This document shows positions 2,521 through 19,006 of a stretch of DNA of 21,225 bases, piece by piece. The position numbers and the translations under genes are program-made. Position 1 is the first letter of the stretch. Each line of letters starts with the position of its first letter. This DNA comes from Lachnospiraceae bacterium UBA3643 (GTDB taxonomy: Bacteria > Bacillota > Clostridia > Lachnospirales > Lachnospiraceae). The DNA is taken from contig DFKO01000064.1 of the NCBI GenBank assembly GCA_002373855.1, forward strand, positions 1 to 21,225. The letters are read 5' to 3'. Below the pieces are notes generated by a model. The model had not been told where the DNA came from, made no database searches, and saw only the letters and a list, made by a program, of their open reading frames with translations.

Positions 2521-3237
2521 ATGAAAAAAGCGGTAGTAACAGGTGCATCGAGGGGGCTCGGAAAAGCCATAGCAAAAATGCTTGCAAAAGAAGGATACGG
2601 GCTGTATCTGATATGTCAGAACAATATCGATTCATTAAGTGAATACGGAAAATATCTCGCAAATACATACGGCGTACCTGTACAATGCTTTAAGGGAGAT
2701 GTATCCGACAGTACATTTGTAAACAGCCTTTTTAGCAAAATCGAGGATCTCGATGTCCTCATAAACAATGCAGGCATATCATACGTTGGTCTGCTTCAGG
2801 ATATGACGGACGATGAGTGGCATAATATCACCGCCGTCAATCTTGACAGCGTCTTTTATTTCTCAAGACAGGCCATAAAGCTGATGCTGAAAAAACACAG
2901 CGGAAACATCATAAATATATCATCTGTGTGGGGAAATGTCGGAGCGTCGTGCGAGGTGGCATACAGCGCGACAAAAGGCGGTGTAAACGCATTCACAAAA
3001 GCCCTCGCCAAAGAACTGGCTCCGTCGGGCATAAGCGTAAATGCCATCTCATGCGGGATGATGGATACAGACATGAACGGGCATTTAAGTCCTGAAGATA
3101 AAGAAGAAATCGTAGCCCAGATACCCGCCGGCAGGCAGGGCACGGGAGATGATGTGGCCATGATGGTTAAATCAATAATAAATGCCCCGTCATATATGAC
3201 AGGGCAGATAATAAGTCTTGATGGCGGCTGGATATGA
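2521..3237 (+). CDS. ymfI: SDR oxidoreductase, probable EF-P 5-aminopentanone reductase
   Basis: A 238-residue classical short-chain dehydrogenase with TGASRGLG at 7-14 (dinucleotide binding), NNAG at 82-85 and the catalytic Ser135, Tyr148, Lys152. The stretch around the active site (SSVWG, then GASCEVAYSATKG and KELAPSGI) matches what is known of YmfI rather than FabG. YmfI reduces the 5-aminopentanone group on a lysine of elongation factor P to 5-aminopentanol, which tunes translation of polyproline. The alternative is a FabG-like 3-oxoacyl-ACP reductase; no fatty-acid gene is adjacent, which favours YmfI. Spacing to the convergent HD-GYP gene is 11 bp. The assignment to YmfI rests on remembered motif resemblance, not an alignment. 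Confidence 0.75.
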   Translation: MKKAVVTGASRGLGKAIAKMLAKEGYGLYLICQNNIDSLSEYGKYLANTYGVPVQCFKGDVSDSTFVNSLFSKIEDLDVLINNAGISYVGLLQDMTDDEWHNITAVNLDSVFYFSRQAIKLMLKKHSGNIINISSVWGNVGASCEVAYSATKGGVNAFTKALAKELAPSGISVNAISCGMMDTDMNGHLSPEDKEEIVAQIPAGRQGTGDDVAMMVKSIINAPSYMTGQIISLDGGWI

Positions 3238-3250
3238 TCCGGCCGTTTTT
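3225..3250 (+). terminator. Terminator overlapping the SDR stop codon
   Basis: A 9-bp stem (3225-3233 with 3237-3245, one G-U pair) with a 3-base loop is followed by TTTTT (3246-3250). The hairpin contains the stop codon and its T-run reaches the stop codon of the convergent gene. On the minus strand no T-run follows, so it should not end the c-di-GMP operon efficiently. Confidence 0.75.
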
Positions 3251-5633
3251 AAACAATCCTGATATCCGTGACTGCGCACTGATCACCGGTGACAGATGCG
3301 TAAATCTCCGGTATATCCTTATCAACCGTCGTAACGTTCTTGATAAATATACCCATATTTTCTGACGTGACGGTTACCTTGTTGCCCTTACGCCTGAAGT
3401 TTACAACGATCTCCATACCCTTTTTGTTTGCATCCTTCCATGCGTTCCAGCTCTCAAACTCCTCACCTTTGGTGACGAGGACTTTGTTTTCCGCACTCTC
3501 GTCAGTCTCGACGATCTCTCCGTCAAGTCTTATGAGCGCAAACTCTTTATATCCCGGACCGTGTGGCTTTTTATCCTCTGAGTAAAACAGGACTATATAT
3601 GGACAGTGCCATACAAACCTGGCCGCCGGCAGTGACATTGAATAAAATGCGATACGCATCTCATCCTTAACAGGCACGCTCTCGGTATAGGCGGCGCAGT
3701 ACCCGTCGATCTGGATATTTTTTATATCCGACTCCATACGGTTTATATATGAGATTTCCTCGGCGATACGCTCTATATCCCCTTCCTTAAGGATCTCATC
3801 GGTCTCAATGGTCTCAATATTTTTAAGTACGCAGTGCTCACCTGTCAGACCGATAAAGGTATATCTTGACCGGTCAGGCAGTGCAAAGATGATCTCATAA
3901 TCCTTTTCCCCGCCGTATATCCTGATCCTCACCTGATCTTTATACCGGCCTGCCTCTATCTCGTAGGATGTACCCTGATCATTTCTGCCGGGAGCTGTAT
4001 CGTGCTCACCTGTGACAGTCATCCTGATGTCCCTTGCATTGGTATCAACACAGTGGCCGTCAAACCACACCTCACCGTATTCATAGTATCTGTTTTCCTC
4101 GATGTACCTCTGTGCATGATGTACTCTGCCATCCATGGAATCAAAGATGATGGCTGCAGGTACCGAAAATCTCTCTTCACCTGTCTCATCTGCAACGAAG
4201 TCCATCCTGATCTTTATGACGTTTTCAGTGATAGGTATACCCCTGAAAATACTGCTCCTGTATGCCTCGCATACAAGTTCATTAATGCTTAAGTCCTCTG
4301 TCTCATCTACAGACTGCTTTAATCTGTAGTCCACATCATCGTCGATGATGTTAACCATGAGTTTGGCAATCTCCGGATCAAAACGATAGCCCGCTTCTGT
4401 GACAAATTCCTCTCTGACACGGGACTGGGGCAGATGATCTCTGAATGATTTCCTGGACGTCATGTTGTCATAGACGTCTGCCACTGCAACTATCCTGGCC
4501 GCAAGGGGGATATCATTGCCTTTAAGTCCCTCCGGATATCCGTCGCCGTCAAAACGCTCGTGATGAAAATGAGCCACTTCCGTAAGGAACGGATAATCTC
4601 TGATATCTCTGAGTATCCTCTCGCCGAGCCTTGTATGATTCATAAATATTTCATTAACGCCGTCCTCAGCTTCCTCACTCTCCAAGAGGATCTTGTCAGG
4701 TATGCTGACCTTGCCCACATCATGGAGAAGTGCCGCATAGTAAACCTTGTCCGTATCATCATCACTGAGGCCATACAGTTTTGCCAGCATCCTCGAATAA
4801 TTGGCCACGCGCACGGAATGGCCTTTCGTGTAATTGTTCTTGGCATCGACAGCACTCATAAACGATACAGCAGTCTGATCAAAGAGACGCTGCATCCCCT
4901 TTCTCTCTCTCTTAAGGTAATCAACTTCCTCCTTATGAAGACGCAGTACCATATTGTTCATGTCATACAGTACGAGCACATACATAAACACAGCCATGAC
5001 AACCATGGAAATATTTATGAGGGAAACTCCGTACAGTTTTGCCTGGAAAAAAGCGGCCACAAGAGGAACAGAGGAAAACAGAAAAAGAGCTGCAAATATA
5101 GCCTTTCTGATTTTCTTCCTGTTAATAAAGAGCTCAATAAAAATAAGCACAAGCATGATAAGAGGCACGAGATAGCATATATAAAATCCATCGCCTCTCT
5201 GATATCTGTTAGAACTGTCAAAGGAATAATAAAAATCCGTAAGCTGGGAGATAATGAGCATGCAAAATCCAAATGCGGCAACTATCTGGGCTGCAACAAG
5301 GAGTCTCGGAGTCCGCTCTACTCCCACATCATTCTTTAACATATCCACAACATACTGGCAGAACAACTCTATAACTATCAGGGTAAAAGCAAATACCATA
5401 AAGTTGCTGAGTCTGACCATCACATATCCGAGAGATGATGTATCACCTCTGAAAATATATGCAAATCTGTCAAAGGTAAGCAGGATCGTGACACCGGCCT
5501 CAAACACACCAAGGAGTATCCTCTTTCTGAATGGAAAAGCATTTGTAATAAATGCAAGCACAGCAAGAATACCGGTGATACCGGACAGCACGAGCATAAT
5601 ATCAAGCTGGTAAACTTTAAGTAATTCGATCAT
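3249..5633 (-). CDS. Membrane HD-GYP phosphodiesterase with C-terminal beta-rich duplicated domain
   Basis: This 794-residue protein probably hydrolyses c-di-GMP in the cytoplasm. Residues about 10-222 form seven hydrophobic segments (about 13-30, 39-54, 70-90, 112-130, 150-170, 178-196, 205-222), like the 7TM sensor parts of some kinases. The HD-GYP domain spans about 245-430: His272 in YTKGHS, His304-Asp305 in LLHDVGK, His333, and HHERFDGDGYP at 357-367, so the metal ligands look intact. Residues 445-794 have no recognised family. They contain two beta-rich halves ending in similar segments (GLTGEHCVLKNIETI near 595-609 and SVTGDQCAVTDIRIV at 780-794), like concanavalin/jelly-roll sandwiches. 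The gene is last in the five-gene operon, 13 bp after the response regulator; its RBS (AAAGG) abuts that gene's stop. GYP-domain activity on c-di-GMP is inferred from motifs. Confidence 0.88.
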   Translation of the reverse strand: MIELLKVYQLDIMLVLSGITGILAVLAFITNAFPFRKRILLGVFEAGVTILLTFDRFAYIFRGDTSSLGYVMVRLSNFMVFAFTLIVIELFCQYVVDMLKNDVGVERTPRLLVAAQIVAAFGFCMLIISQLTDFYYSFDSSNRYQRGDGFYICYLVPLIMLVLIFIELFINRKKIRKAIFAALFLFSSVPLVAAFFQAKLYGVSLINISMVVMAVFMYVLVLYDMNNMVLRLHKEEVDYLKRERKGMQRLFDQTAVSFMSAVDAKNNYTKGHSVRVANYSRMLAKLYGLSDDDTDKVYYAALLHDVGKVSIPDKILLESEEAEDGVNEIFMNHTRLGERILRDIRDYPFLTEVAHFHHERFDGDGYPEGLKGNDIPLAARIVAVADVYDNMTSRKSFRDHLPQSRVREEFVTEAGYRFDPEIAKLMVNIIDDDVDYRLKQSVDETEDLSINELVCEAYRSSIFRGIPITENVIKIRMDFVADETGEERFSVPAAIIFDSMDGRVHHAQRYIEENRYYEYGEVWFDGHCVDTNARDIRMTVTGEHDTAPGRNDQGTSYEIEAGRYKDQVRIRIYGGEKDYEIIFALPDRSRYTFIGLTGEHCVLKNIETIETDEILKEGDIERIAEEISYINRMESDIKNIQIDGYCAAYTESVPVKDEMRIAFYSMSLPAARFVWHCPYIVLFYSEDKKPHGPGYKEFALIRLDGEIVETDESAENKVLVTKGEEFESWNAWKDANKKGMEIVVNFRRKGNKVTVTSENMGIFIKNVTTVDKDIPEIYASVTGDQCAVTDIRIV

Positions 5634-5646
5634 TGATTATCAACCT

Positions 5647-6414
5647 TTACTGACGGGTCATAAAGAAATTATTTAACTTTTCAAGGAGTTCGTTTTTCTC
5701 AACAGTCTTTAATATATATCCCTCCGGCTTGTATGCCATGACATTCATGACACTCTCCTTGTCACTCCTGCCGGTCAGGAAAAACACGGGAATACGTTTT
5801 GTATCCTCATCACTCCTGAGCATTTTTAACACTTCCGGTCCGCTCGTGACGGGCATCTCATAATCAAGGAGGATAAGGTCTGTCTTGTTTTTTCCGAGCC
5901 ACTTTATAGCCTGGAGTCCGGAGCCGACCATATCGACTTTATACAGATTTTTTAACCAGTCCCTGACTATCCACATATATCCCGGATCATCATCAACTAT
6001 GAGGATCGTCTTTTTCGTATCGCCATCGTTTATCTTTACGGACAATTCAAAGATGCTCATAAAGAAATCAACATTGTCTACGGGCGAGATGAATTTTTTA
6101 TAGATAAGGACATTCTGGAGCTTATCGGACAGAGTCTTTACATTCTGCTTGTCTCCAACAAGAGTCACTCTCGTATTGTCATTGATCATTTTGTCATTGA
6201 TCAGTCTGATGATCTTCTCGGGAGGCAGTCCGCCGTTGTCGGTATATACCACAGCGAGCTCGAGTTCTGACCACTTAAGAGCCAGTTCATTTTCATCCCA
6301 TCCGCAGTATGCACATTCAAAGCCTGCTTCCTTAATCTTGTTTTCAAGGACCCTTGCCATAAATGTCTCTTTTTCTGCTATGAATAAAATCACTTTATCC
6401 TGATTATCAAACAT
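5647..6414 (-). CDS. Response regulator: degenerate receiver plus canonical receiver, no output domain
   Basis: The 255-residue soluble protein consists of two receiver-like domains. The second (about 134-255) is complete: acidic pocket at 141-143 (DDD), phosphoacceptor Asp184 in LLDYEMP, Thr214 in FLTGR and Lys236. The first (about 5-125) has the alternating hydrophobic pattern of a receiver, but Tyr57 sits where the acceptor Asp is expected and the acidic pocket is mostly lost, so it is probably a pseudo-receiver used for binding. No DNA-binding or enzymatic output follows. The start ATG has GGGAG 7 bp upstream. It lies 17 bp after the hybrid kinase, whose C-terminal Hpt is its most likely phosphodonor, and 13 bp before an HD-GYP gene, a plausible partner. 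Partner assignments are inferred from context. Confidence 0.87.
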   Translation of the reverse strand: MFDNQDKVILFIAEKETFMARVLENKIKEAGFECAYCGWDENELALKWSELELAVVYTDNGGLPPEKIIRLINDKMINDNTRVTLVGDKQNVKTLSDKLQNVLIYKKFISPVDNVDFFMSIFELSVKINDGDTKKTILIVDDDPGYMWIVRDWLKNLYKVDMVGSGLQAIKWLGKNKTDLILLDYEMPVTSGPEVLKMLRSDEDTKRIPVFFLTGRSDKESVMNVMAYKPEGYILKTVEKNELLEKLNNFFMTRQ

Positions 6415-6431
6415 CTCTTATCTCCCGTTTA

Positions 6432-9400
6432 TCAGTTTGCTTTTATCACTTCTTCCATCTTGTCCCAGTCAAGGATCCTGAACAGTTTGTTCAGCTCGGC
6501 TATCACTCCCGCCGCATCGTCCGGCAGTTTATACTCACTTAGCTGATCAAGTATCATCTCAACAGAACCTGCATCCATCTGGGAGATCACAACCTTTAAC
6601 GTATCAAGGCCGTCCCGAAGCATATCATCATCAATTAAAGGCTTATCATCTGCTCCGTTTTCCTCGCCGGCCTTTTTCAGTTTTTCCTTAAATGCCCTGT
6701 ACTCTGCGAGGAATCCCAAAGCGGTTTTATTTATATAATCCTTATCTTCCCGGTTGCCTGCATTTTCAAGTTCCTCGGCTCTCTTTGAAAGACCTGTTGC
6801 TCCGACTATTCTGGCTGATGTCTTAAGTGAATGAACTTTTATCGTAAACATCCGCAGGTCCCCTGCCCTGAATGCCTTTTCTATCAGATCTGAATTGTCA
6901 TCTATAGTCTCATAAAACATCTTTACGGACATAATAAATGCGGGGATGCTTCCGGAATGTTTTATTCCGTCATCTGCATTTAATCCTTCTACCTCCTTAA
7001 CCCAGAGGAAGTCTTCGGGAATCTCCGTGATCTCCTCATCGTCAGCCTCAGACTCAGTGACCTGTACTATGCCGGAGGGCAGATGCTTTAATATGATGCG
7101 CTCGAGGATAACAGTATCTATGGGTTTTGTCAGGTAACCGTCAAAGCCTTTTGATATGTAATAGTCCTCTCCCGCCGTTGAGTTTGCAGTGAGAGCATAT
7201 ACGGGCAGATCAGGATAATTCTCCCTGATCCTCTCAAGTGTCTCGATACCATCCATGCCGGGCATCATATGATCGAGAAATACCATATTGAATCTGCCGT
7301 ACCTGATCTTTTCAAGACATTCCGGTCCGCTCATTGCAGTCGTAATAAACATCTTTGTGGATTTGAGTAGTCCCTTTATGACCTCAAGGTTCATGGGATT
7401 GTCATCTACCACGAGGATGTCTGCTTCAGGCGCTATAAACTTTGGTTTATAAGGTCCCGCGTTATGATCCTGCCTCTCGATAAATGCCCCGATAGCCTTT
7501 CTGTCCACTATTTTCTGGGTAATAGTCAGCACAAACTCGGAGCCCTCACCGTATTTACTCTCACATGTGAGAGTACCGCCGAGGATCTGCGCAAACTTCA
7601 TTGATATATCGAGTCCGAGTCCCGTACCCTGGATATCACTGTTTTTAACTTCATCAAGTCTCTGGTACGCGGTAAAGAGTTTATCGCGATCCTCCTCTTT
7701 AATACCCATACCCGTATCCTTGACACTTATCCTTATACGGCATGAATCATTTGTCTTTTCCTCCATAAATACGCGGAGAGAAAAGCCACCTTTTTGCGTA
7801 TATTTAACGGCATTCGTGAGCAGATTTAATGTGATCTGCTTGATCTTACCGCAGTCTCCGTACATCCTGACCGGTATACTCTCGTCCACGTCCACATCAA
7901 AGAATAAACCTTTCTGGGAACTGCGGACTCTGATCATGGATACGATTGACCGCAGGATTTCCTCCGTATTGTACTCCTGCTCTACGAGGTTCATCTTGCC
8001 TGACTCAATCTTACTCATATCGAGGAGATCGTTGATAAGCGAGAGCAGAGCCTCCGATGCATTCCTGATATCCAGCGAATAATTTATGACAGACATAAAG
8101 TAGCCTTTTGGCACATCCTTGGCATCCTCACGCATCACCATCTCATTCATACCCATAATGGTATTGATAGGTGTACGTATCTCATGGGAAATATTGGCCA
8201 GGAATCTGGTCTTGGCCGTGCTGGCCCTCTCTGCCTCTTCCTTTGCAATCTTAATATCTTCATACTGCTTTTTAATGACTGTTCCTGACATGACGCGCCA
8301 TACCACAAAGCCTGCAATTATTACGAGGAGTCCCACAAATAATACTTTGACAAGGATCAGCTCTGAAAATTTAGGCTGCTTGATGATATTAAATGTATCA
8401 TCCTGGACAACAGCTCCTGTTGCGTCATCTATAATCTCAATATGGAGCACGTAATTTCCATATTTAAGCCCTGTGTACTCAAGAGCAGAGAGTTTGTCTC
8501 TCGTCGCAGTGATGCCGTCATCGCTACCCTCAAGGAATACATGTACTGTGGGATTTGACATGGTATAGTCAAGTACAGAGCAGCAGATCTGTATTCTGCC
8601 GGTTCCCTTGGGGATAACATATGTACCGTCCTGCCCCGGAAGTATCCGCTCATTGTTGCACATGAGTGATCCTATATCAGTCTTAATGCTGGCATTTTCC
8701 TCAAGATAATGATTTATATTTACTCTTGTAACGCCGTTTCTGCATGATATATAAAGATTGCCATCATCATCAAGAGCGCTGTACGAATTGGATGTAGGAG
8801 TACCCGTCATACCGTTTGCCAGAGTGTAGAGGCGGTAGTTGGTCACCTCATTGTTTAATACGTCCTCTGCGCTCACCCGGTATATACCGTACGATGAGAG
8901 TATCCACATATTATCTTTATCATCAAAATAAAAATCATAATTATTATTGATCGGGAATGATGTCACATTTGTGATGACACCGTCCTTCATATATTCAATG
9001 GAGTTGGAGGTAACTATCCAGTAGACGCCTCTTGTGTCATCTTTTTTAATACGCATGACGACATCACTCGTCAGACCGTCATCTCTGCCAAGATGTGTGA
9101 CGGTGTCGCCATCTATCACGTACATACCGTCTCCGTCGGATCCGACAATTATCTCTCCGTCATCGCCGTTTTCAACTGTCAGGAATACAGTATTTTTAAT
9201 ACCGTCTTCCTCAGCTACGACTCTCATGACAACTCCGTATTTAATAATGGCAAGTCCTCCGTTTGTACCTACCAGAGCCGAGCCGTCATCTGCAAAAGTA
9301 ATATTTCTGATGTAAGGGCTTGGCAGCCCGTCTGCCTCGGTGTAACCGGTTATCGTGCCGTCAGGGTGATAACAAACCAGTCCGCGCTTGCCCTTATAGG

Positions 9401-10673
9401 TACATACCCAGATATTTCCATCATCATCTGCTTTGATACATCTGACTCTCTCGTTGCCGATATATTCCGTCAGGTCGTTTTCGACAATATTCATATCACT
9501 GTCCAGGATATAGAGACCGGAATCCGTACCTATATAGAGCATGTCTCCGTATTTATATGTGGCACTCACCACATCCTCCGGGATCCCTGCCGCCTCAGTA
9601 ATATTAGAGAAGTTGTTGGCAACAACCTTCATCACGCCCTGGGTAGATGATGCAAACCACATATTACCCTGATAATCGGATGTAACCATCTCTATGGCAC
9701 TGGTCATAGGCAGATTGTCTATAATATGAAATGAGAAATCGGTATCGAGGAAACCTGCTGACGAAGGCGTGACTATCCATACCCTGCCGCAGTCATAACT
9801 CATCCAGTGTATCTCTTCCACACCTTCTGTCTCTATCTTTTTAAGTTCTTTTGAACCATATCCAAAAGGACCGTAATAAATATAATCATTAACTGTACCG
9901 TAATAGAAAACTCCCGGTTTTTCAGGATCGGGTAGGAGTGATGTGATCTCATTAACGCCTAGATCACTGCTCTCATAATACTCATCTATCACACCATCTG
10001 TTACCGAAAAGACTGCGCCGGAACCGGTGAGTCCGTATATCATGCCTGAGCTGTCTGATACAACCCTGAGTATTCTGTCGCTGTTGATACGGTCATCATC
10101 CACTATGTGTATGCTCATGGCATCATCCAGATAGCATAAACCTGCTGTAGTACCGGCATAAATATTGCCAAGGCTGTCCTCCGCGAACGACCTGATCGAC
10201 GATGCAGGGAGGCCCTCCTTGTATGTAATATGCTCGGCTGTGCCATTTGTGATTATGACAATACCGTTGTCATTTATACCGACCCATATACGGCCTTTAC
10301 TGTCCTCAAAGATACATCTGCCGCTGGTCAGTCCGTCGGATATGGTCACCTTTTCAAATACATTGCCGTCATATCTGAATATACCGCTGTATCCTCCTAT
10401 CCATACATATCCGGCCGTTGTGCCCAAAACATAATTGGCATCAGATGTCGGCAGACCGTTTGAGGCATCATATATCTCTGTCGTATATCCAAAACCTTCC
10501 AGCTGGCCTGTGACGGCGTACCCGCCTCCGTACTCATCATATACCGTGGGCTCTTCATCGGCTGTGACATTTATTATTCCGGCACTGATAAAAAGTACTA
10601 AAACAAAAAGCAGAAAAACAGCTGCCTTTTTAATGAGTCCGATATTATTTTTTATGGATAAATTAACTCTCAT
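6432..10673 (-). CDS. Hybrid sensor histidine kinase with beta-propeller sensor, receiver and Hpt
   Basis: A 1413-residue membrane phosphorelay kinase. An N-terminal hydrophobic segment (about 13-35) is the signal/anchor. Residues about 60-660 carry about a dozen Reg_prop-type repeats (pattern DGL...S..I....D..G..W.GT..G), enough for two extracellular propellers. About 665-765 resembles a Y_Y_Y domain. The second TM is about 773-795. HisKA has His830 (NISHEIRTP); HATPase_c has Asn954 and DTGMG/GTGLGL boxes. The receiver (1085-1200) has Asp1134 in FLDHMMPGMDG. The Hpt has His1281 in KVHSLKTSARIVGA. A further helical stretch (1340-1413) follows. In Bacteroidetes such sensors usually end in an AraC output and sense glycans; here the AraC domain is absent and the relay must leave through the Hpt. 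The start overlaps the upstream stop by 11 bp, suggesting translational coupling; GGGA lies 8 bp before the ATG. Confidence 0.93.
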   Translation of the reverse strand: MRVNLSIKNNIGLIKKAAVFLLFVLVLFISAGIINVTADEEPTVYDEYGGGYAVTGQLEGFGYTTEIYDASNGLPTSDANYVLGTTAGYVWIGGYSGIFRYDGNVFEKVTISDGLTSGRCIFEDSKGRIWVGINDNGIVIITNGTAEHITYKEGLPASSIRSFAEDSLGNIYAGTTAGLCYLDDAMSIHIVDDDRINSDRILRVVSDSSGMIYGLTGSGAVFSVTDGVIDEYYESSDLGVNEITSLLPDPEKPGVFYYGTVNDYIYYGPFGYGSKELKKIETEGVEEIHWMSYDCGRVWIVTPSSAGFLDTDFSFHIIDNLPMTSAIEMVTSDYQGNMWFASSTQGVMKVVANNFSNITEAAGIPEDVVSATYKYGDMLYIGTDSGLYILDSDMNIVENDLTEYIGNERVRCIKADDDGNIWVCTYKGKRGLVCYHPDGTITGYTEADGLPSPYIRNITFADDGSALVGTNGGLAIIKYGVVMRVVAEEDGIKNTVFLTVENGDDGEIIVGSDGDGMYVIDGDTVTHLGRDDGLTSDVVMRIKKDDTRGVYWIVTSNSIEYMKDGVITNVTSFPINNNYDFYFDDKDNMWILSSYGIYRVSAEDVLNNEVTNYRLYTLANGMTGTPTSNSYSALDDDGNLYISCRNGVTRVNINHYLEENASIKTDIGSLMCNNERILPGQDGTYVIPKGTGRIQICCSVLDYTMSNPTVHVFLEGSDDGITATRDKLSALEYTGLKYGNYVLHIEIIDDATGAVVQDDTFNIIKQPKFSELILVKVLFVGLLVIIAGFVVWRVMSGTVIKKQYEDIKIAKEEAERASTAKTRFLANISHEIRTPINTIMGMNEMVMREDAKDVPKGYFMSVINYSLDIRNASEALLSLINDLLDMSKIESGKMNLVEQEYNTEEILRSIVSMIRVRSSQKGLFFDVDVDESIPVRMYGDCGKIKQITLNLLTNAVKYTQKGGFSLRVFMEEKTNDSCRIRISVKDTGMGIKEEDRDKLFTAYQRLDEVKNSDIQGTGLGLDISMKFAQILGGTLTCESKYGEGSEFVLTITQKIVDRKAIGAFIERQDHNAGPYKPKFIAPEADILVVDDNPMNLEVIKGLLKSTKMFITTAMSGPECLEKIRYGRFNMVFLDHMMPGMDGIETLERIRENYPDLPVYALTANSTAGEDYYISKGFDGYLTKPIDTVILERIILKHLPSGIVQVTESEADDEEITEIPEDFLWVKEVEGLNADDGIKHSGSIPAFIMSVKMFYETIDDNSDLIEKAFRAGDLRMFTIKVHSLKTSARIVGATGLSKRAEELENAGNREDKDYINKTALGFLAEYRAFKEKLKKAGEENGADDKPLIDDDMLRDGLDTLKVVISQMDAGSVEMILDQLSEYKLPDDAAGVIAELNKLFRILDWDKMEEVIKAN

Positions 10674-12810
10674 GATACTTTTCCCAAATCATTCTGGCAT
10701 CATCAAGTGAATCCATAAATACCTCTACGCATTTAGGATCAAACTGGGTACCGGCTCCCTCGCTGATAATCTCAAGGGATTTCTCAAGCGAGAATGCAGG
10801 CTTGTAAACACGGGGTGATGTGAGGGCATCAAATACATCAGCCACTGCCATAACCCTGGCTGACAGGGGGATAACCTCTCCGTGGAGTCCCTCGGGATAG
10901 CCCTTTCCGTCCCATCTCTCGTGATGATAACCTGCCATATTTCTGGCTTCTTTAAGGTATGTACCACCCTGAACCATGGCGATTGCATTTTCCATGATCT
11001 TTTTTCCGGCTGTCGTATGAGTCTTCATGATCTCAAATTCCTCAGGCGTCAGCTTGCCCGGCTTGTTAAGAACGGCATCCGGTATGCTGACCTTGCCGAC
11101 ATCATGAAGAGGTGCCGACCGGACAACATCCTCAATATATTCATCAGTGATTTTTTCAAGATAATAGCCTTTTCTCCTAAGGCCCTCAAGGACAATCCTC
11201 ACGTATGCTGCGGTCTTCTGGACATGAGCACCCGTATCGGAATCCCTGTTTTCCACGATATCCGCAAGCGTGATGATCAGACCGTTTTGCATGGTAGATA
11301 CCGACTCTGTATAATACCTGATATTTCTCATCTGCTCCGCCATACCGGAAGCCATCCTGCATATTGACTGATAGAGAGCCTCTATCTCATCACCTGTCTT
11401 TATGTTTAATGACCTGATCTGCTTTACACTCTCGTCAAGCTCATCCTGGCTGACCTGGCGCTTCATAAACCTGCCTGTAAATCTCGCCATACTCTTAACG
11501 GGATATACGAGGCCGTATGCCGTGAACCAGAGACCCACAGCGATGATGAGAATAAGGAATCCAAAGAATACGAGCAGTACCTGGAGTACGAAATCCTTGA
11601 TATAATTTGTCATATACTCCAAGGATGCATCCGCGCCGGCGTATGCAACGCAGTGACCTTTTGAATCATATATAGGCGTATAAGCAGTCATGAAATATCC
11701 GTACCTGCTGTGCACCTCGACGACTTCGATTTTTTCACCGTTTAAAAGGGCCGGAATATAAGGCTCAAATGTTTCATCAAAAGGAATCATGGTACCTATC
11801 TTTTCGGTATTTCTAACCTCCGGATCCGTGTCAAAAACAAGGCGACATCCGTCCGGCCTTATCTGATATACATACAGATATCTGATATCAGAAAGGCTCT
11901 CATGATATGAGACAAGCAGATTATTTATATCCATATACTTCTGATTCTCATACTCACTGATATATTCGCCGTCTGACAAAAAGCCTTTTATCAGGTCACC
12001 ATCTATGTTTTCCGCCACAAATTCCGACGCTTTTATGGCGTCCTGTGCATATTCTTTTTTCAGATCCCTGAAATATAACTTAATACCGCAAAAAGCCATG
12101 AGTCCCGCCATTGATGCAGATGCAACTATGAGCATGATGGTCATCCTGGCATTCAGGGATTTGCCTGCGGCATATGATTCTTTTTTATATTCTTTTATCT
12201 CCGCTTCCGTGATGGGCTTTTGCTTCCAGCCAAGATTCCACATACGGTCTTTTACATCCTTAGGGATATAGACAAGGCCCATATAAGCCATAAAAGCAGA
12301 GAATCCCTTATCAACTATATTAAAGCCGAAATTAATGAGCAGTGCAGACATAAAAAAGTCCATGCCGGCTCCCTCTGAAAGCATCCTGGCAGCCTGTTCC
12401 ACATCCTCAAACTGGGGACCGCCGAGTATGATCCACTGAAAAATAATACCGGGTATACCACCGAGAGCAGAAATAATTATCAGGTATACTGCGGCATTAC
12501 TCTTTTTCTTAAATAATTCTGTTTTTACAAAATATGATGTTACAAGAACAATAGAAATACTGATTATAGAATAATAAAGTGCATATTCATTAAAAATACT
12601 GCACAGGGTATTAGATGCTATGGCTGTGACAATACCGGGTACGGCACCCATCATTACTGAAATAAAGATGGTGCCTACCGTATCAAGATAAATAGGAAGT
12701 CCAAGTCTTCCTACTATATAATTTAAGAGTACATTAACGGCTATGGCCAGCAATACTATTACCGCTGCCTTTGCCCTGTCTCTGTTTATTGCGTTAAGGT
12801 GATTACCCAC
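10663..12810 (-). CDS. Membrane HD-GYP phosphodiesterase with ECF-S-like membrane part, Cache-like domain and HAMP
   Basis: The 715-residue protein starts with GTG, supported by AGGAGG 8 bp upstream. Residues about 14-185 are a multi-TM region whose YLDTVGTIF...GAVPGI pattern resembles ECF transporter S components. A further TM (about 221-245) leads to an extracellular part (about 246-400) with the look of a Cache sensor (motif YLYVYQI, then YAGADAS). TM about 405-432 and a HAMP-like linker (about 433-490) follow. The HD-GYP domain (about 505-690) has His529, His569-Asp570, His598 and HHERWDGKGYP at 629-639, all apparently intact, so c-di-GMP hydrolysis is predicted. It is the second operon gene: 19 bp after the GGDEF-EAL gene and overlapping the kinase start. 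The ECF-S resemblance is a pattern impression; no ECF ATPase is nearby. Confidence 0.9.
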   Translation of the reverse strand: MGNHLNAINRDRAKAAVIVLLAIAVNVLLNYIVGRLGLPIYLDTVGTIFISVMMGAVPGIVTAIASNTLCSIFNEYALYYSIISISIVLVTSYFVKTELFKKKSNAAVYLIIISALGGIPGIIFQWIILGGPQFEDVEQAARMLSEGAGMDFFMSALLINFGFNIVDKGFSAFMAYMGLVYIPKDVKDRMWNLGWKQKPITEAEIKEYKKESYAAGKSLNARMTIMLIVASASMAGLMAFCGIKLYFRDLKKEYAQDAIKASEFVAENIDGDLIKGFLSDGEYISEYENQKYMDINNLLVSYHESLSDIRYLYVYQIRPDGCRLVFDTDPEVRNTEKIGTMIPFDETFEPYIPALLNGEKIEVVEVHSRYGYFMTAYTPIYDSKGHCVAYAGADASLEYMTNYIKDFVLQVLLVFFGFLILIIAVGLWFTAYGLVYPVKSMARFTGRFMKRQVSQDELDESVKQIRSLNIKTGDEIEALYQSICRMASGMAEQMRNIRYYTESVSTMQNGLIITLADIVENRDSDTGAHVQKTAAYVRIVLEGLRRKGYYLEKITDEYIEDVVRSAPLHDVGKVSIPDAVLNKPGKLTPEEFEIMKTHTTAGKKIMENAIAMVQGGTYLKEARNMAGYHHERWDGKGYPEGLHGEVIPLSARVMAVADVFDALTSPRVYKPAFSLEKSLEIISEGAGTQFDPKCVEVFMDSLDDARMIWEKYHES

Positions 12811-12818
12811 GCTTAAAT

Positions 12819-12824
12819 CCTCCT
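12819..12824 (-). promoter_or_regulatory. Ribosome binding site supporting a GTG start
   Basis: AGGAGG on the minus strand, 8 bp before GTG at 12808-12810. This strong site is the main reason for calling the non-ATG start of the 715-residue HD-GYP protein. Confidence 0.8.
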
Positions 12825-12829
12825 AGGCG

Positions 12830-15800
12830 TCAGGTCTTTGAATACTCCTCGGTAGTCCTGATCATCCGCATATTTTCTCTGACAGCGCCGATAAACTTAT
12901 CCTTGCCTGTACGGAGTATTACGTTAATACCTGCATCCTCAAGATCAAATATACCCTTGTCATCTCCGGAACCGATACCGAGAGCATCATTACCCTCAGC
13001 TACAACTTTAAATCCTGCATGGCGTCCCCAAATCTTGAACTCGCCCTTTGAAGAACCGAGCATTATAAGTTCGCGGCCGTTAAGGGTAGCCACATACTTG
13101 CCGCCATCAAGTTTAACCTCACCGCCAAGCTCGCCAAAGGTACCCATACCGCAGAGTTTCGTACCTGATCCGTGGATGTCGCAGCGCATGCTGGACATAT
13201 TGATAACCGGGCGTCCATCGATTGCACCGATACCAACACCCTGGGATACCCTAAGTTCCTGAGAGATTGAGCAGTTGTCCACGACGATATCGGGGGATCC
13301 TTCATACGCACCTATGCCGACACATTCCTCACAAGACATCACAAAATCCGTGTGACCGTTGTTCAGCCTGATTGAGCTGCCCTCCGCCATACTGCCGGCA
13401 CCGATACCGATACACTTGTTACCGTCACACTTGATATTAAGACGACCTGTGATGTCAATGATAACACTTCCGCATGTCTCCTTGGGGCCTCCTCCAATAC
13501 CGTAGCATTCAACATTCTTGGCCATGATATCAAGGTTGCCTCCGCCGACCAGCTTGACTGATGATGTGGCAGGGACTCTGATACCAGCCTGATGGAGTTC
13601 ATTCTTTGTACCCCAGAGTTCGAGTGTTAAGTTGACATTGTTGCCAAGCTCAATACATGGCGTATCATCCTCGCTGGCGATACATACATCCTTCATCACA
13701 ATATGGCAGTTTGTATCATCCTTGATCTTGATGGTCATGCCAGCCACGAAATCAGGATTGCCGATAAGATTCATGAAATCCTGGGCAATAATGATGCCTG
13801 TGTACTGCTCAAGAGACAGACGCATGACGGGGAGTTCTTTCTCACCGTTTGCCACAAACATCTTTTTATGCAGAGCAGTATACTCGCCCATATTGGCCTG
13901 GATGATATCGTGATAAACCTCCTGGGAAACCTCTTTGACAAAATCAAACTGGGGCTTGGCTGTGTAAAAGCCCTGGATAAGGTCAACGCCCATATGGATA
14001 ACTGCTCGCAGTTCTCCGATAGTCTCAACGCCCTCCGCGAGTGCCATGAAACCGTTGTTGTGGGCGAACTCTATAATATTCTTTACAAAATGCTGCTTCT
14101 TGGGCTCCTCCTGAATATCAGCGATCAAAAGTCTGTCAATCTTGACAACGTGGGGCTGATATTTAAGAAGCGCGGCAGTATTGGAATATCCCGTACCGTA
14201 ATCGTCAATGGCAACCGCATATCCGTCCCGTTTGCTCCTGCCGTCTATGACCTCAAACTCCTCATCGCTCATCTCTGTCTGCTCGGTAATCTCAACTACC
14301 AGCTTTTCAAAGAAATCACCGAAACGGAGTTTTAATTTATCATAGTCCATATCATCGAGATGAGATCCCGGGATACTGTTTATAAATATTCTCTTTGAAC
14401 CGAGCTCTTCCCTTAACGGATAACACTGGTTCATAACATTGAAGAATGTTGCCTTTTCGATCTCATAGAGTCTGCCGGTATCAGTTGCATATTTCAGAAT
14501 GGTAAGAGGTGATATGAATCTCTCTGTAGCCGATCTCATCAGAGCCTCGTAAGCATATATACTGCCGTCCTTGGCGCTGACGATAGGCTGGTATGCATAT
14601 CTGAATCTGTTGTTGTTTATGCAGTCCTCAACCAGCTCTCTCTCATCATTATCAGGTGTGACAGACGTGGTATTGCCCACTCTCTTTCTGCCCTCCTTGA
14701 TAAGAGCCTTTTCCGCAAATGCCTGATCGAGTACGGCACGCATATCATCTGCCTTGTCAAAATCAACTACCGTCGAGTTCTGATTGATCTCAATAGTATA
14801 TTCCTTGCCTGAGACAGAATTATAATTGGCAATACGATTGTCAAGCTCCTTAAATAATATATCGGCAGCCAGTTTTGCATCAAGCTTGACATGAAGAGCC
14901 GCAACAAACTCGTCGCCTCCGATATGAGCGCATATACCGAGGTCTCCCACCGCATCGGATATGATCGTGCCAAGAACCTTTATGGCATGATCACCCTCGA
15001 AATGACCGTATATATTATTGATATTTGCAAGTCTGTCTATGTCTATGCAGCAGAGTACCATGGTCTCTTTATTAACCATACAGTGCTTTTTGAGTTCCTC
15101 GACCTGCTCAACAAAACCGTTGGCGCTGAGCATACCGGTGAGGGTATCACGGTCCGACATCTCCTTGACCTGGGCAGATACATGATAGAGCTCGCAGTTT
15201 GCAATCCGGAGTCTGCGGTCACTGATATATCTTGCAAAGAGAGATTCTATATGGCTGATAAATCTGTCAAATATAGATGCAGACACGCTGTACTCGGAAT
15301 CTGTGACAATCCAGTTTCCAAAATACATACCGTCATAAAAAAGCGGTGATATGATGACAGGTACTTCCCCCTCGAGGATCTGGTCATACTCCGGGAAAAT
15401 ATCCTTTTCATTAAAGTACGTCCATGTCCTGGGCTCTCTCCTGGTATCTGCGAGGACGTACATCTTGCCATCCTCATGAGTCATGCTGAACTGGGCTCCG
15501 TATATATCCTGAAGGAATGAATCTCTCACGCAGATGAATGAATCCTCCGGGAGATTATCCGTGATAAGTTCCGAAATATTTTTAATATCAGAGAGTTCCG
15601 GGAGTTTTCTCGCCATGTTAAAGAGCTTTGGCTCTATTGAGACTCTCTTTTCCTGCTGGGCATACATACGGTTAAGTATTGTAGAATAGTCGGTACCCTC
15701 ATCAGATTTACATCCGCAGGATCCGCCGTACTTGATCGGACACTTTACAGGAGTCATGCGGACAGTATCTTTTCCGTCAAGGAGTGCTCCGATCCGGTCA

Positions 15801-16552
15801 AATACCTGCACAGCCATATCATGCTGGTTTTTATCAATCGTAGTGATGGAGGGGATGTAATAATCGCTCCTCACCGATCCGTCTATACCTGTGACGATCA
15901 CGTCATCTGGGACCTTTAAATTCCTCTTTTTAAGGAGATCACAGAGAGCGATAGCCATGGCATCATTGGCACAGACAATGGCATCGGGAGTATCAAGCGA
16001 AAGAAGCTCATCTCCTGCCTTCTGGGCTCCGTCTATCCAGTAATTGCCGTATGCTATACGGTTTTCATCATATTCAATTCCGTATTTGGAGAGAACGTTT
16101 CGATAAATATCGATGAGTTTGTCAGAATTCCATCTGTGAAGGAATCCGAGCATCAAATCGATCTTTGAGCATTTATGAACAGTCACAAGATGGCAGAGCA
16201 GCTCGTCAAAGGAGTCCTCCACAACGGAATAAAGACATCTGCAGTCCTCCTGCATGTCATTAAAGAGTATTGCGGGTTTGCCCTGTTTCTCTGCTGCCCT
16301 GACTATTTTAGAGATAAATGTTCTGTTGGTAATTTTGAAGCCGTCGATGATAACAGCGTCGCACACATTTATAAATGATGTGTAGCACTCTTCATCATCA
16401 TTGGCATTTCCCCCGGATATACCCATACTCACATAAACAGAGAGTATGTTGTATCCCCTTTCCCTGCCTTCTTTGATGACAGCCTCGAAATTATAAAGAC
16501 TGTCCTCATTATGAAGTCTGCCTGTGTAAAAACCTATTGTTTTCCTTAACAT
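12830..16552 (-). CDS. Cytoplasmic LacI-type sensor / GGDEF / EAL protein with GIG-repeat beta-helix-like C-terminus
   Basis: A 1240-residue soluble protein, counted from the ATG at 16550-16552. Residues about 1-270 match LacI/GalR-type periplasmic-binding folds (CANDAMAIA, PDDVIVTGIDG) but no HTH precedes them. A Cys-rich spot (GGSCGCKS) and a linker domain (about 300-455, possibly GAF-like) follow. GGDEF (about 465-625) has the intact GGDEF at 545-549, but no RxxD inhibitory site upstream of it. EAL (about 635-885) keeps Glu669 (EALMR), Asn725, Glu754, Asp783-Asp784 (DDYGTGYS), Lys804, Glu840 and Gln860, so phosphodiesterase activity is likely. Residues about 1010-1234 hold seven repeats of 28-31 residues marked by GIG-like turns. 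No signal peptide or TM is seen. An in-frame TTG six codons earlier was rejected because it overlaps the GGGGGAAG RBS. First gene of the five-gene c-di-GMP set. Confidence 0.92.
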   Translation of the reverse strand: MLRKTIGFYTGRLHNEDSLYNFEAVIKEGRERGYNILSVYVSMGISGGNANDDEECYTSFINVCDAVIIDGFKITNRTFISKIVRAAEKQGKPAILFNDMQEDCRCLYSVVEDSFDELLCHLVTVHKCSKIDLMLGFLHRWNSDKLIDIYRNVLSKYGIEYDENRIAYGNYWIDGAQKAGDELLSLDTPDAIVCANDAMAIALCDLLKKRNLKVPDDVIVTGIDGSVRSDYYIPSITTIDKNQHDMAVQVFDRIGALLDGKDTVRMTPVKCPIKYGGSCGCKSDEGTDYSTILNRMYAQQEKRVSIEPKLFNMARKLPELSDIKNISELITDNLPEDSFICVRDSFLQDIYGAQFSMTHEDGKMYVLADTRREPRTWTYFNEKDIFPEYDQILEGEVPVIISPLFYDGMYFGNWIVTDSEYSVSASIFDRFISHIESLFARYISDRRLRIANCELYHVSAQVKEMSDRDTLTGMLSANGFVEQVEELKKHCMVNKETMVLCCIDIDRLANINNIYGHFEGDHAIKVLGTIISDAVGDLGICAHIGGDEFVAALHVKLDAKLAADILFKELDNRIANYNSVSGKEYTIEINQNSTVVDFDKADDMRAVLDQAFAEKALIKEGRKRVGNTTSVTPDNDERELVEDCINNNRFRYAYQPIVSAKDGSIYAYEALMRSATERFISPLTILKYATDTGRLYEIEKATFFNVMNQCYPLREELGSKRIFINSIPGSHLDDMDYDKLKLRFGDFFEKLVVEITEQTEMSDEEFEVIDGRSKRDGYAVAIDDYGTGYSNTAALLKYQPHVVKIDRLLIADIQEEPKKQHFVKNIIEFAHNNGFMALAEGVETIGELRAVIHMGVDLIQGFYTAKPQFDFVKEVSQEVYHDIIQANMGEYTALHKKMFVANGEKELPVMRLSLEQYTGIIIAQDFMNLIGNPDFVAGMTIKIKDDTNCHIVMKDVCIASEDDTPCIELGNNVNLTLELWGTKNELHQAGIRVPATSSVKLVGGGNLDIMAKNVECYGIGGGPKETCGSVIIDITGRLNIKCDGNKCIGIGAGSMAEGSSIRLNNGHTDFVMSCEECVGIGAYEGSPDIVVDNCSISQELRVSQGVGIGAIDGRPVINMSSMRCDIHGSGTKLCGMGTFGELGGEVKLDGGKYVATLNGRELIMLGSSKGEFKIWGRHAGFKVVAEGNDALGIGSGDDKGIFDLEDAGINVILRTGKDKFIGAVRENMRMIRTTEEYSKT

Positions 16553-16568: not shown

Positions 16569-16591
16569 AATAATATCTTTACAAAAATCTT

Positions 16592-17875
16592 TTATACGGT
16601 AGCGAGCGCCTGCTCAAGGTCTGCGATGAGGTCTTCCTTGTCCTCAAGTCCGCATGACATCCTGACGAGTCCTGCAGGAATACCTGCTGCCTCGAGCTGC
16701 TCATCTGTCATCTGACGATGTGTGGATGTAGCCGGATTCAGACAGCATGTCCTTGCATCGGCTACATGGGTCTCGATAGCTGCGATCTTAAGTGCTTTCA
16801 TAAACTTTTCAGCAGCCGCTCTGCCACCCTCTATCTCGAATGAAACTACGCCGCATCCGCCGTTAGGGAGATACTTCTGCGCAATCTCATAATATTTATC
16901 ACTCTTAAGTCCGGAGTAATTAACCTTTGTAATCTTGGGATGTTTCTCGAGAAACTCTGCAACTGCCTGACCGTTTTCAACGTGCCTGGCCATACGTACA
17001 TGGAGAGACTCTATACCGAGATTTAATATAAACGCATGCTGGGGAGACTGGATACATCCGAAATCTCTCATGAGCTGGGCTGTGGCTTTTGTGATAAACG
17101 CGCCTTCCTTGCCAAACTTCTCAGCATATGTAATACCGTGATAAGACTCATCCGGAGTAGTGAGTCCGGGGAACTTGTCAGCGTGAGCCATCCAGTCAAA
17201 CTTACCCGAATCGATGATGGCACCGCCTACTGTAGCACCGTGACCGTCAAGATATTTTGTAGTTGAATGGGTAACTATATCTGCTCCCCACTCAATCGGT
17301 CTGCAGTTGATAGGAGTAGGGAATGTATTGTCGATGATAAGAGGCACGCCGTGAGCATGCGCTGCCTTTGCAAACTTCTCGATATCGAGAACGGTAAGTG
17401 CAGGGTTTGCTATCGTCTCGCCAAATACGAGTTTCGTATTGTCCTTAAATGCGGCGTTAAGCTCATCTTCCGTGGCATCGGGAGATACAAAAGTCACATC
17501 AATGCCCATCTTTCTCATAGTCACATCGATGAGGTTGAATGTACCACCGTATATGGATGAAGAAGCGACGATATGACCGCCGTTTTCACAGATATTAAAC
17601 ATCGCGAAAAAGTTTGCAGCCTGTCCGGATGATGTAAGCATAGCTGCCGTGCCGCCCTCAAGCTCTGCAAGCTTTGCAGCTACATAATCGTTTGTGGGAT
17701 TCTGGAGTCTTGTATAGAAATAACCGCTTGCCTCGAGGTCGAAAAGCTTGCCCATATCTTCACTTGTATCATACTTGAATGTTGTAGACTGAATAATGGG
17801 AATCTGTCTGGGCTCTCCGTTGCCCGGTCTGTAACCTGCCTGAACGCATTTGGTATTGATTTTGAAATCACTCAT
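16592..17875 (-). CDS. metY: O-acetylhomoserine aminocarboxypropyltransferase (sulfhydrylase)
   Basis: A PLP enzyme that makes homocysteine from O-acetylhomoserine and sulfide, in methionine synthesis; cytoplasmic. It has 427 residues, the usual length for MetY (longer than MetB/MetC, about 380). Family landmarks are TKCVQAGY near the start, TRLQNPTND, TSSGQAA, IIDNTF, and the PLP lysine Lys207 in HSTTKYLDGHG. The C-terminal STHRQM and VRMSCGLED motifs are present. The start at MSDFKIN has AGGAGA 6 bp upstream; an in-frame ATG 13 codons earlier has no such site. The gene has an extended -10 promoter candidate and a leader of about 70 bases, too short for the usual SAM riboswitch. It sits alone among methionine genes, directly upstream of the c-di-GMP set. 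Minor alternative: cystathionine gamma-synthase. Confidence 0.93.
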   Translation of the reverse strand: MSDFKINTKCVQAGYRPGNGEPRQIPIIQSTTFKYDTSEDMGKLFDLEASGYFYTRLQNPTNDYVAAKLAELEGGTAAMLTSSGQAANFFAMFNICENGGHIVASSSIYGGTFNLIDVTMRKMGIDVTFVSPDATEDELNAAFKDNTKLVFGETIANPALTVLDIEKFAKAAHAHGVPLIIDNTFPTPINCRPIEWGADIVTHSTTKYLDGHGATVGGAIIDSGKFDWMAHADKFPGLTTPDESYHGITYAEKFGKEGAFITKATAQLMRDFGCIQSPQHAFILNLGIESLHVRMARHVENGQAVAEFLEKHPKITKVNYSGLKSDKYYEIAQKYLPNGGCGVVSFEIEGGRAAAEKFMKALKIAAIETHVADARTCCLNPATSTHRQMTDEQLEAAGIPAGLVRMSCGLEDKEDLIADLEQALATV

Positions 17876-17881
17876 TTTTCT

Positions 17882-17887
17882 TCTCCT
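17882..17887 (-). promoter_or_regulatory. metY: Ribosome binding site deciding the metY start
   Basis: AGGAGA on the minus strand, 6 bp before the MSDFKIN ATG. It favours the 427-residue over the 440-residue reading. Confidence 0.75.
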
Positions 17888-17953
17888 AATTGAATACACT
17901 ATATCTATAAGCAAAAGTTATCGCACTTTTTTATCACCTATAAATACTGAATA

Positions 17954-18502: not shown

Positions 18503-19006
18503 ATGACTGATTATTTTAAAGAGGCCCTGGCATCATTTACAAAGGATACTGCATACGGCGGAGCCATCAGACACCTGGCGGATAACGGTCTCACTGTAAA
18601 AGAGATCACTGCAAAACTGTCATATCCCGTGGCAGAAAATATTGTATCTGAATATGTCTGGAATCATTTCATAAATAACAAAACAATCTGTATAAATCTG
18701 TCTGATTTTTATGATGACCCGGAAGGTGAATTTATAAAGGTAACCGGCAAATACGGAAAAACCAGTTTTGTCAGAAAATCTCCTGTCACTGAAATAAAAG
18801 AGCCAAAGGAATATGTAGAATGCAATTTCGGATCGGATAAAAGATTAAGTCCAAAAGAATATGAAAGAGAACTGTTATTATTAACCGATAACGACAGGGA
18901 ATATATCGAAGGTCTGCCATGGCCGTCAGGACCTGTTTATCATATAAAAAATGAGCGGATGGCCAGAATCGCCGATCCGCTCCATTTGAAAATATTATTA
19001 CTTTGA
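18503..19006 (+). CDS. Unrecognised 167-residue protein paired with DUF1284
   Basis: No family was recognised. The N-terminal part (about 1-60) is helical with AYGGAIRHLADNGLTVKEI, a pattern that could be a helix-turn-helix-like fold. The middle (about 65-100) looks beta-rich, and the C-terminus has acidic helices and the motif GLPWPSGPVYHI. It is soluble, with no signal peptide and only one cysteine. It follows the DUF1284 gene by 12 bp, with a modest CGGAG site before the ATG. Its last 9 bp overlap the convergent MATE gene and no terminator hairpin is seen at the junction. The reading frame, codon use and operon position support a real gene. Confidence 0.72.
   Translation: MTDYFKEALASFTKDTAYGGAIRHLADNGLTVKEITAKLSYPVAENIVSEYVWNHFINNKTICINLSDFYDDPEGEFIKVTGKYGKTSFVRKSPVTEIKEPKEYVECNFGSDKRLSPKEYERELLLLTDNDREYIEGLPWPSGPVYHIKNERMARIADPLHLKILLL

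Follow-up and report, generated by a model that had tools for sequence, protein, structure and literature searches.

We analysed a stretch of 21,225 nucleotides from Lachnospiraceae bacterium UBA3643 (contig DFKO01000064.1; this whole stretch is called the window), in which five co-directional genes, G1 to G5, encode proteins with cyclic di-GMP (c-di-GMP) domains and a phosphorelay. With somewhat better than even confidence we read four of them, G2 to G5, as a conserved signalling cassette of the Lachnospiraceae that would lower c-di-GMP under phosphorelay control and that in this lineage lies between G1 and a gene of the short-chain dehydrogenase/reductase (SDR) type. An earlier note on this DNA had taken all five genes for one integrated module, an interpretation that appears half right: the survey of gene order points to a real, conserved integrated unit consisting of the four genes G2 to G5, with G1 as a neighbour. 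Sequence comparison established the gene order, the differing flanks, the G1/SDR junction, the metal site of the G2 product (HDA), the relay residues and the frequent loss of metal-site residues in the G5 product (HDB).

The note had located the five genes correctly, in a tight run of minus-strand open reading frames (ORFs) with gaps of 19, -11 (an overlap), 17 and 13 nt in the order G1-G2-G3-G4-G5, and Pfam confirmed its domain signatures (GGDEF, EAL, two HD-GYP, hybrid kinase and receiver). The cassette genes and their parts are as follows:

10663..12810, minus strand: G2, encoding HDA, with an ECF-S-like membrane N-terminus, an extracellular segment of weak Cache similarity and an HD-GYP domain with intact metal site (Pfam, hydropathy, residue survey)
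10732..11265, minus strand: HD-GYP domain of G2 (profile match)
6432..10673, minus strand: G3, encoding a hybrid histidine kinase (HK) with Reg_prop propeller and Y_Y_Y (sub-threshold), HisKA (H830), HATPase, receiver domain (REC, D1134), Hpt (H1281) and a tail of residues 1336-1413 (Pfam, residue check, hydropathy)
5647..6414, minus strand: G4, encoding the regulator RR2, with an N-terminal pseudo-receiver (no Pfam match; named by inspection), a REC domain (D184) and no output domain (Pfam, residue check)
3249..5633, minus strand: G5, encoding HDB, with an N-terminus of several transmembrane segments, an HD-GYP domain and a tandem β-sandwich C-terminus (Pfam, hydropathy, residue survey)
4368..4856, minus strand: HD-GYP domain of G5, its seven surveyed metal-site residues canonical in the window copy (profile match, residue survey)
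3252..4289, minus strand: tandem galectin/lectin-like β-sandwich region of G5, about residues 449-794

We sought G4, G3, G5 and G2 in all 35 genomes of the genus set (own genome included) and scanned one genome per GTDB species with an alignment of G3, from which the best 80 of at least 584 kinase loci were taken; nearly all of these 80 are titled Lachnospiraceae, Butyrivibrio or Pseudobutyrivibrio, and many come from ruminants by title. Over all loci 98 distinct kinase genes were counted, and for 72 of them the flanking DNA sufficed. In 63 of these 72 relatives HDA immediately precedes the kinase, and the full order HDA-HK-RR2-HDB, i.e. G2-G3-G4-G5, is present in 35. HDA and HDB without RR2 directly after the kinase were found in 17 loci, RR2 following HDB in three of them (L265, L285, L305); the others have HDA and RR2 (six), HDA only (five) or no HDA directly upstream (nine). 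Among 20 kinase neighbourhoods of the genus set all four genes stand in order in three (L177-L179), G2-G3-G5 without G4 in nine (L180, L184-L186, L188-L192), G2-G3-G4 in two (L181, L182), G2-G3 in two (L183, L187) and G3-G4 in three (L193-L195, two of them on short contigs). The last one, L196, has the order kinase-regulator-HDA (6089-11089), and its related kinase has an N-terminal match to the ECF-S-like membrane part of G2. Identities in the first of these groups are 37-57%, and the genes flanking the cassette vary from locus to locus. Because the order is kept at such identities while the flanks differ, G2 to G5 are, as judged by sequence, a real conserved unit of the Lachnospiraceae that keeps its order in changing surroundings. 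G5 has a match at E <= 1e-60 in 24/35 genus genomes. Two loci depart from a single copy, L266 with two HDA-kinase units side by side and L294 with one run that includes two propeller kinases, a pattern suggestive of duplication or of more than one arrival. The literature that we searched for this gene order or for HD-GYP proteins of Lachnospiraceae or Butyrivibrio, largely without subscription papers, had no description of the unit, which may thus be called undescribed to that extent, as the earlier note had supposed.

HDA mostly has an intact metal site. The families HD_5/HD match G2 above the Pfam cut-offs, and its N-terminus resembles an ECF S component (NF045596, E 1.6e-18, below cut-off). 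By hydropathy both G2 and G5 encode predicted membrane proteins in which HD-GYP follows the last hydrophobic segment. The residue set of HD, HH, single His/Asp metal ligands, Lys and GYP reads HHDKHHHEGYPD in the window HDA and in 70/75 module HDAs; all seven metal-site residues are kept in 70/75, the exceptions being four proteins with Tyr for the His of HD and one with a gap. The positions equivalent to the substrate contacts R314 and K317 of PmGH are both basic in 74 of the 75, and the mean column majority of the HDA HD-GYP domain is 0.86.

The relay is likewise well preserved. Reg_prop, HisKA, HATPase_c, Response_reg and Hpt match G3 above the Pfam cut-offs (Y_Y_Y below, E 0.0034), and the large part between the hydrophobic segments 9-40 and 767-801 should be extracellular according to hydropathy. 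G4 encodes a predicted soluble protein with a single Response_reg above cut-off in its C-terminal half. The four residues from which a complete phosphorelay had been proposed, H830, D1134 and H1281 of G3 and D184 of G4, are right by residue number, and they are kept in the relatives: H830 in 96/101, D1134 in 99/101 and the Hpt His in 93/101 (seven gaps) G3 relatives, and D184 in 72/73 RR2 proteins (one gap). The last ~75 residues of the kinase, its tail, and RR2 tend to occur together (both present in 62 of 89, both absent in 14, one without the other in 13), a hint that the tail serves RR2. One reading frame of the window's own genome joins a relative of the G3 propeller to GGDEF (L006, contig C168), tying this type of sensor to c-di-GMP, and genes of the c-di-GMP synthesis type beside the kinase in L236, L245 and L301 point the same way.

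The second HD-GYP protein behaves differently across the family. G5 matches HD_5/HD above the Pfam cut-offs, its C-terminal ~350 residues being without a Pfam match, and the window HDB has the complete HD-GYP residue set (HD, HH, single His/Asp ligands, Lys, GYP), so that its metal ligands are not lost. With HDB positions mapped by alignment of G5 to PmGH, all seven metal-site residues are complete in only 9/62 module HDBs, the window copy among them; the other 53 have lost one (3), two (9), three (26), four (9) or five (6). Alanine exchange at the surveyed positions abolished or markedly cut the activity of PmGH, as reported (PMC4159591). In a wider HDB family of 841 proteins, the best 120 of which were taken and 116 were long enough, a set biased towards the window, 55/116 are complete and 61/116 have lost two or more residues, gaps counted as losses; none has lost exactly one. 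On an HDB tree the intact copies are scattered, requiring at least four state changes; this was a quick tree without bootstrap, calculated with the metal-site columns excluded and rooted for drawing only. E359, G365 and P367 are nevertheless kept in 67/67 HDBs and in 111-112 of 116 in the wider family. Since the degenerate HDBs are conserved as whole proteins, the last β-sandwich as much as HD-GYP (mean column majority 0.63 each; first sandwich 0.51), these data fit a protein retained for a non-catalytic role. The most interesting new fact, on the evidence of these alignments, is that the metal site of HDB has decayed repeatedly at a fixed position of the cassette, which is best read as a drift of HDB towards a regulatory or receptor role. 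Inactive HD-GYP proteins are known, such as VC1087 and VCA0895 of V. cholerae and ECA3548 of Pectobacterium (PMC4212101) or Bd1817 (PMC4159591).

It is possible, although we hold it to be doubtful, that HDB generally is a c-di-GMP receptor which senses the level set by HDA and relays it to kinase or RR2 or through the membrane, like DvhD or LapD, so that the cassette would comprise its own eraser and reader. The 53/62 module HDBs that lost at least one metal-site residue while retaining E359, G365 and P367 argue for this, as does the pattern of the wider family, and DvhD of Desulfovibrio vulgaris, in which these ligands are absent, binds c-di-GMP without cleaving it (PMC13090378). The window HDB, however, is intact and may be an enzyme, 55/116 of its closer family are complete too, and the substrate-contact positions are only partly kept: both are basic in 7/9 complete HDBs and in only 25/53 degenerate ones. 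The window copy itself has Tyr268 at the position of PmGH E185 and thus probably does not form a three-metal site.

Several observations weigh against the preferred reading of G2 to G5 as a c-di-GMP-lowering cassette, the partial loss of substrate contacts in HDB being one of them. The choice of the best 80 of at least 584 kinase loci favours conserved order, and a G5 match at E <= 1e-60 is missing in 11/35 genus genomes, so the unit is not universal. The best match of G5 in the PDB is 5z7c, V-cGAP3, a Vibrio phosphodiesterase of 3'3'-cyclic GMP-AMP (3'3'-cGAMP), two stretches of the chain being aligned, and by analogy HD-GYP enzymes may cleave other cyclic dinucleotides. An independent-pairs test of kinase tail and RR2 gave three supported pairs with a median p of 0.5, which is not significant. 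Pfam finds no Response_reg match in G2 or G5 and no HD match in G4, and no ORF combining REC and HD-GYP occurs in loci L067-L086, L177-L196, L227-L306 or the window; with no receiver on the cassette HD-GYP proteins either, the step from RR2 to HDA or HDB is unsupported. A REC-HD-GYP fusion ORF does lie convergent to a receiver-only regulator in genome G008 (L116, 1926-3026), so the genus does have classical regulators of this type; G008 has no G5 match and no full-length G2 match. Finally, 4/72 loci (L193, L252, L284, L296) have kinase and RR2 but neither HDA nor HDB, so RR2 may act elsewhere.

The last point also speaks for a reading that we regard as improbable, namely that only history or selfish co-transfer has brought the four genes together, with kinase and RR2 controlling something else and the HD-GYP proteins acting independently. 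RR2 relatives elsewhere often have no HD-GYP gene within 1.5 kb, a range that does not cover the HDA place upstream of the kinase, and the window's own genome (G000, a fragment of 1.94 Mb, 67% complete) is rich in c-di-GMP genes: profiles match 30 GGDEF, 14 EAL and 14 HD_5 domains, and contigs C168, C229 and C240 each have at least three such matches near one another. As such clusters lie on other contigs too, co-occurrence alone is weak evidence and the conservation of gene order decides; that order, kept at the identities given above in many genomes with different flanks, and the fusion of a related propeller to GGDEF stand against mere co-location.

G1, which the earlier note had counted in, belongs to another locus by its distribution, so that two units are joined in the window. 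It comprises the following parts:

16570/16552-12830, minus strand: G1 as an ORF, with start options at 16570 or ATG 16552, the latter the better choice as it has GGGGG before it
12830..16552, minus strand: G1, encoding a soluble LacI-type periplasmic-binding-like domain without helix-turn-helix (HTH), followed by GGDEF, EAL and a C-terminal β-helix (Pfam, hydropathy, residue survey, locus comparison)
14720..15154, minus strand: GGDEF domain of G1, probably non-cyclase/regulatory (profile match, residue survey)
13952..14626, minus strand: EAL domain of G1, surveyed catalytic residues intact (profile match, residue survey)
12842..13861, minus strand: β-helix C-terminal domain of G1, about residues 904-1243 (AlphaFold2 model)

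Matches to G1 at E <= 1e-20 were found in 45/60 genomes (own included), many covering the GGDEF or EAL part only; long matches spanning the β-helix are, among the matches listed, confined to the genus. In 12 of the 20 G1 neighbourhoods fetched G1 lies directly against the convergent SDR gene; one ORF separates the two in L070, and six loci have no adjoining SDR gene (L075 near a contig end). Apart from the window, the cassette sits inside the G1/SDR junction in the sister genome G014 alone (L067; its G1 is 98% identical). Searching genomes for the five-gene order returned the same two cases and no others: G1 occurs within 5.5 kb of none of the 97 other kinase relatives counted, G014 being outside this count for its split G3 ORF. 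The simplest history would be that in the lineage comprising G000 and G014 the cassette moved in between G1 and SDR. In L067 (contig C67, 1-7516) the G3 homologue consists of two overlapping frames and the G5 homologue of two pieces, reflecting decay or sequencing error in a draft assembly. A GGDEF gene is found upstream of G1 relatives in L068, L069 and L076, and a protein with a G5-type lectin-like tail is encoded near them, upstream, in L078, L081, L084 and L085; G1 thus has recurring c-di-GMP neighbours of its own. In G025 the SDR gene adjoins a remnant of HDA with a broken frame (L076, 11757-12556).

The G1 protein is predicted to be soluble, and GGDEF and EAL match above the Pfam cut-offs; the periplasmic-binding-like part is its sole LacI-type match, the N-terminal HTH of LacI-family transcription factors being absent. 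AlphaFold2 modelled residues 884-1246 with a pLDDT of 93.3 and a pTM of 0.89, and comparison of this β-helix model with the PDB gave nothing at E <= 0.001 and weak matches mostly to β-helix proteins. The EAL set E, N, E, DD, K, E, Q is complete in 21/21 distinct G1-family proteins. In the DxDxFK motif of their GGDEF domains Phe is replaced by Leu in 21/21 and Lys by Gly, Ser or Ala in 21/21 (Ala in the window copy), and Ser, Thr or Ala stands in place of the second Gly of GGDEF in 19/21, the window and G014 alone keeping it. The window copy has the letters GGDEF together with the metal and base residues, and inspection revealed no RxxD I-site in it. The synthesis arm claimed for the run is therefore present in its letters and doubtful in its cyclase role. 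As the GGDEF domain is without canonical residues and the EAL set is complete, G1 is probably a hydrolase only, that is a putative soluble EAL phosphodiesterase whose GGDEF domain probably senses a nucleotide and makes no c-di-GMP; in FimX, GTP boosts EAL activity via a degenerate GGDEF domain, as described in PMC8846402. The combination of two hydrolase types that the note had stressed is a feature of this junction alone; in the conserved unit both hydrolase-type proteins belong to HD-GYP, and HDB is usually degenerate.

A cyclase partner beside the cassette recurs in the loci surveyed but is exceptional: a GGDEF gene immediately precedes HDA in L180, L183, L187 and L304, HDB is replaced by a GGDEF gene in L236 and L245, and HDA by a GGDEF-EAL gene in L301. 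Together with the tight co-directional spacing and the letters GGDEF in window G1, such partners favour a balanced five-gene module in which G1 makes c-di-GMP and G1, G2 and G5 break it under one signal, a reading that we consider very improbable given that the full order is limited to the window and G014, that G1 stands beside SDR without the cassette in 12/20 loci, that the canonical Phe and Lys are missing throughout its family and the second Gly in most of it, and that no I-site was seen.

Further features flank the run:

16592..17914, minus strand: metY (O-acetylhomoserine sulfhydrylase; TIGR01326 above cut-off), a flanking gene and possibly the first of the run
3183..3206, minus strand: terminator-like hairpin downstream of G5 (10 pairs, six of them G-C, T-rich tail)
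2521..3237, plus strand: convergent SDR gene (YmfI-like EF-P 5-aminopentanone reductase; NF047420 above cut-off)

The end of metY is 39 nt upstream of the G1 ATG at 16552, so with this gene, which the earlier description of the run had left out along with the hairpin, the tight run has six genes; metY is also found just upstream of G1 in G014 and G017. The hairpin starts ~40 nt beyond G5. One transcript for the run is plausible from the spacing and would include metY. An Rfam scan of the window gave no family at gathering score. Further away, a 167-aa ORF without Pfam match (18503-19006) lies beside DUF1284, and relatives of it occur near the cassette in L185 and L186.

Parts of the cassette resemble several known systems. 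The hybrid two-component systems (HTCS) of gut Bacteroides combine a Reg_prop/Y_Y_Y sensor, HisKA, HATPase and REC in one protein. G3 likewise has a Reg_prop/Y_Y_Y (sub-threshold) sensor with kinase and REC in one chain, but it carries an Hpt domain, would work with a separate regulator and has c-di-GMP enzymes as neighbours. There is no HTH family among the eight Pfam families found at E <= 0.1 and no AraC-type DNA-binding domain, the absence of which rules out G3 as an HTCS. In V-cGAP3 one of two HD domains is degenerate, whereas the complete and the often degenerate HD-GYP of the cassette are separate proteins on either side of the kinase. G1 shares a degenerate non-cyclase GGDEF beside EAL with proteins of the FimX/LapD type, but differs in its canonical EAL set, its predicted solubility and the presence of a LacI-type domain and a β-helix. 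DvhD is, like most HDBs, a membrane HD-GYP protein with lost metal ligands, and has dCache and PAS domains and a Lap-like adhesin operon (PMC13090378), whereas HDB has a multi-transmembrane N-terminus, a lectin-like tail and a kinase cassette; its window copy is not degenerate. In RpfC/RpfG of Xanthomonas a hybrid kinase (HK, REC, Hpt) is encoded with an HD-GYP phosphodiesterase, and an outside signal lowers c-di-GMP (PMC3749722). G3 is also a hybrid kinase with HisKA, HATPase, REC and Hpt beside HD-GYP genes. RpfG, however, is a REC-HD-GYP fusion, whereas in the cassette, whose HD-GYP proteins are without REC, the phosphate would go to the pseudoREC-REC protein RR2, which is separate and has no output domain; moreover, the cassette has two HD-GYP proteins instead of one, and a propeller in place of the RpfC sensor. 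By analogy the cassette would work most like RpfC/RpfG, yet it fails the defining REC-HD-GYP fusion of that family.

From these comparisons we propose a tentative mechanism. The extracellular propeller of G3 would bind an outside ligand, possibly a carbohydrate by analogy with hybrid kinases of glycan-using bacteria, and phosphate would pass from H830 via D1134 and H1281 to D184 of RR2. RR2, which has no output domain, would influence HDA, the putative membrane phosphodiesterase, and/or HDB through protein contact. HDA would be the main c-di-GMP hydrolase and HDB its partner with a cytoplasmic lectin-like tail, enzyme-like in the window copy, whereas in most relatives it would have become a non-enzymatic regulator or c-di-GMP receptor. 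HDB keeps its GYP, which would fit such protein contact, because in RpfG this motif is reported to mediate contacts with GGDEF proteins (PMC3749722). G1 would be a neighbour of the cassette, probably controlled by a sugar-like ligand and by a nucleotide bound at its GGDEF domain.

A bolder version, to which we assign a low probability, sees a self-contained eraser-plus-reader circuit in which HDA destroys c-di-GMP while HDB, a former HD-GYP enzyme, reads c-di-GMP and, with its lectin-like tail, an intracellular sugar, with feedback to kinase or RR2. The metal site of HDB would then have been lost more than once, provided that regains are excluded on the tree. If this version were true, the window lineage would represent the ancestral enzymatic state, and a single conserved gene position would allow the transition from enzyme to receptor to be traced.

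If the preferred reading of G2 to G5 holds, the view of the run as a balanced make-and-break module is corrected, and many Lachnospiraceae would couple a propeller kinase to c-di-GMP hydrolysis via a separate, output-less regulator, unlike the wiring of RpfC/RpfG, and the pair of an intact and an often degenerate HD-GYP protein at a fixed position would offer a natural series on how a hydrolase becomes a reader of its signal.

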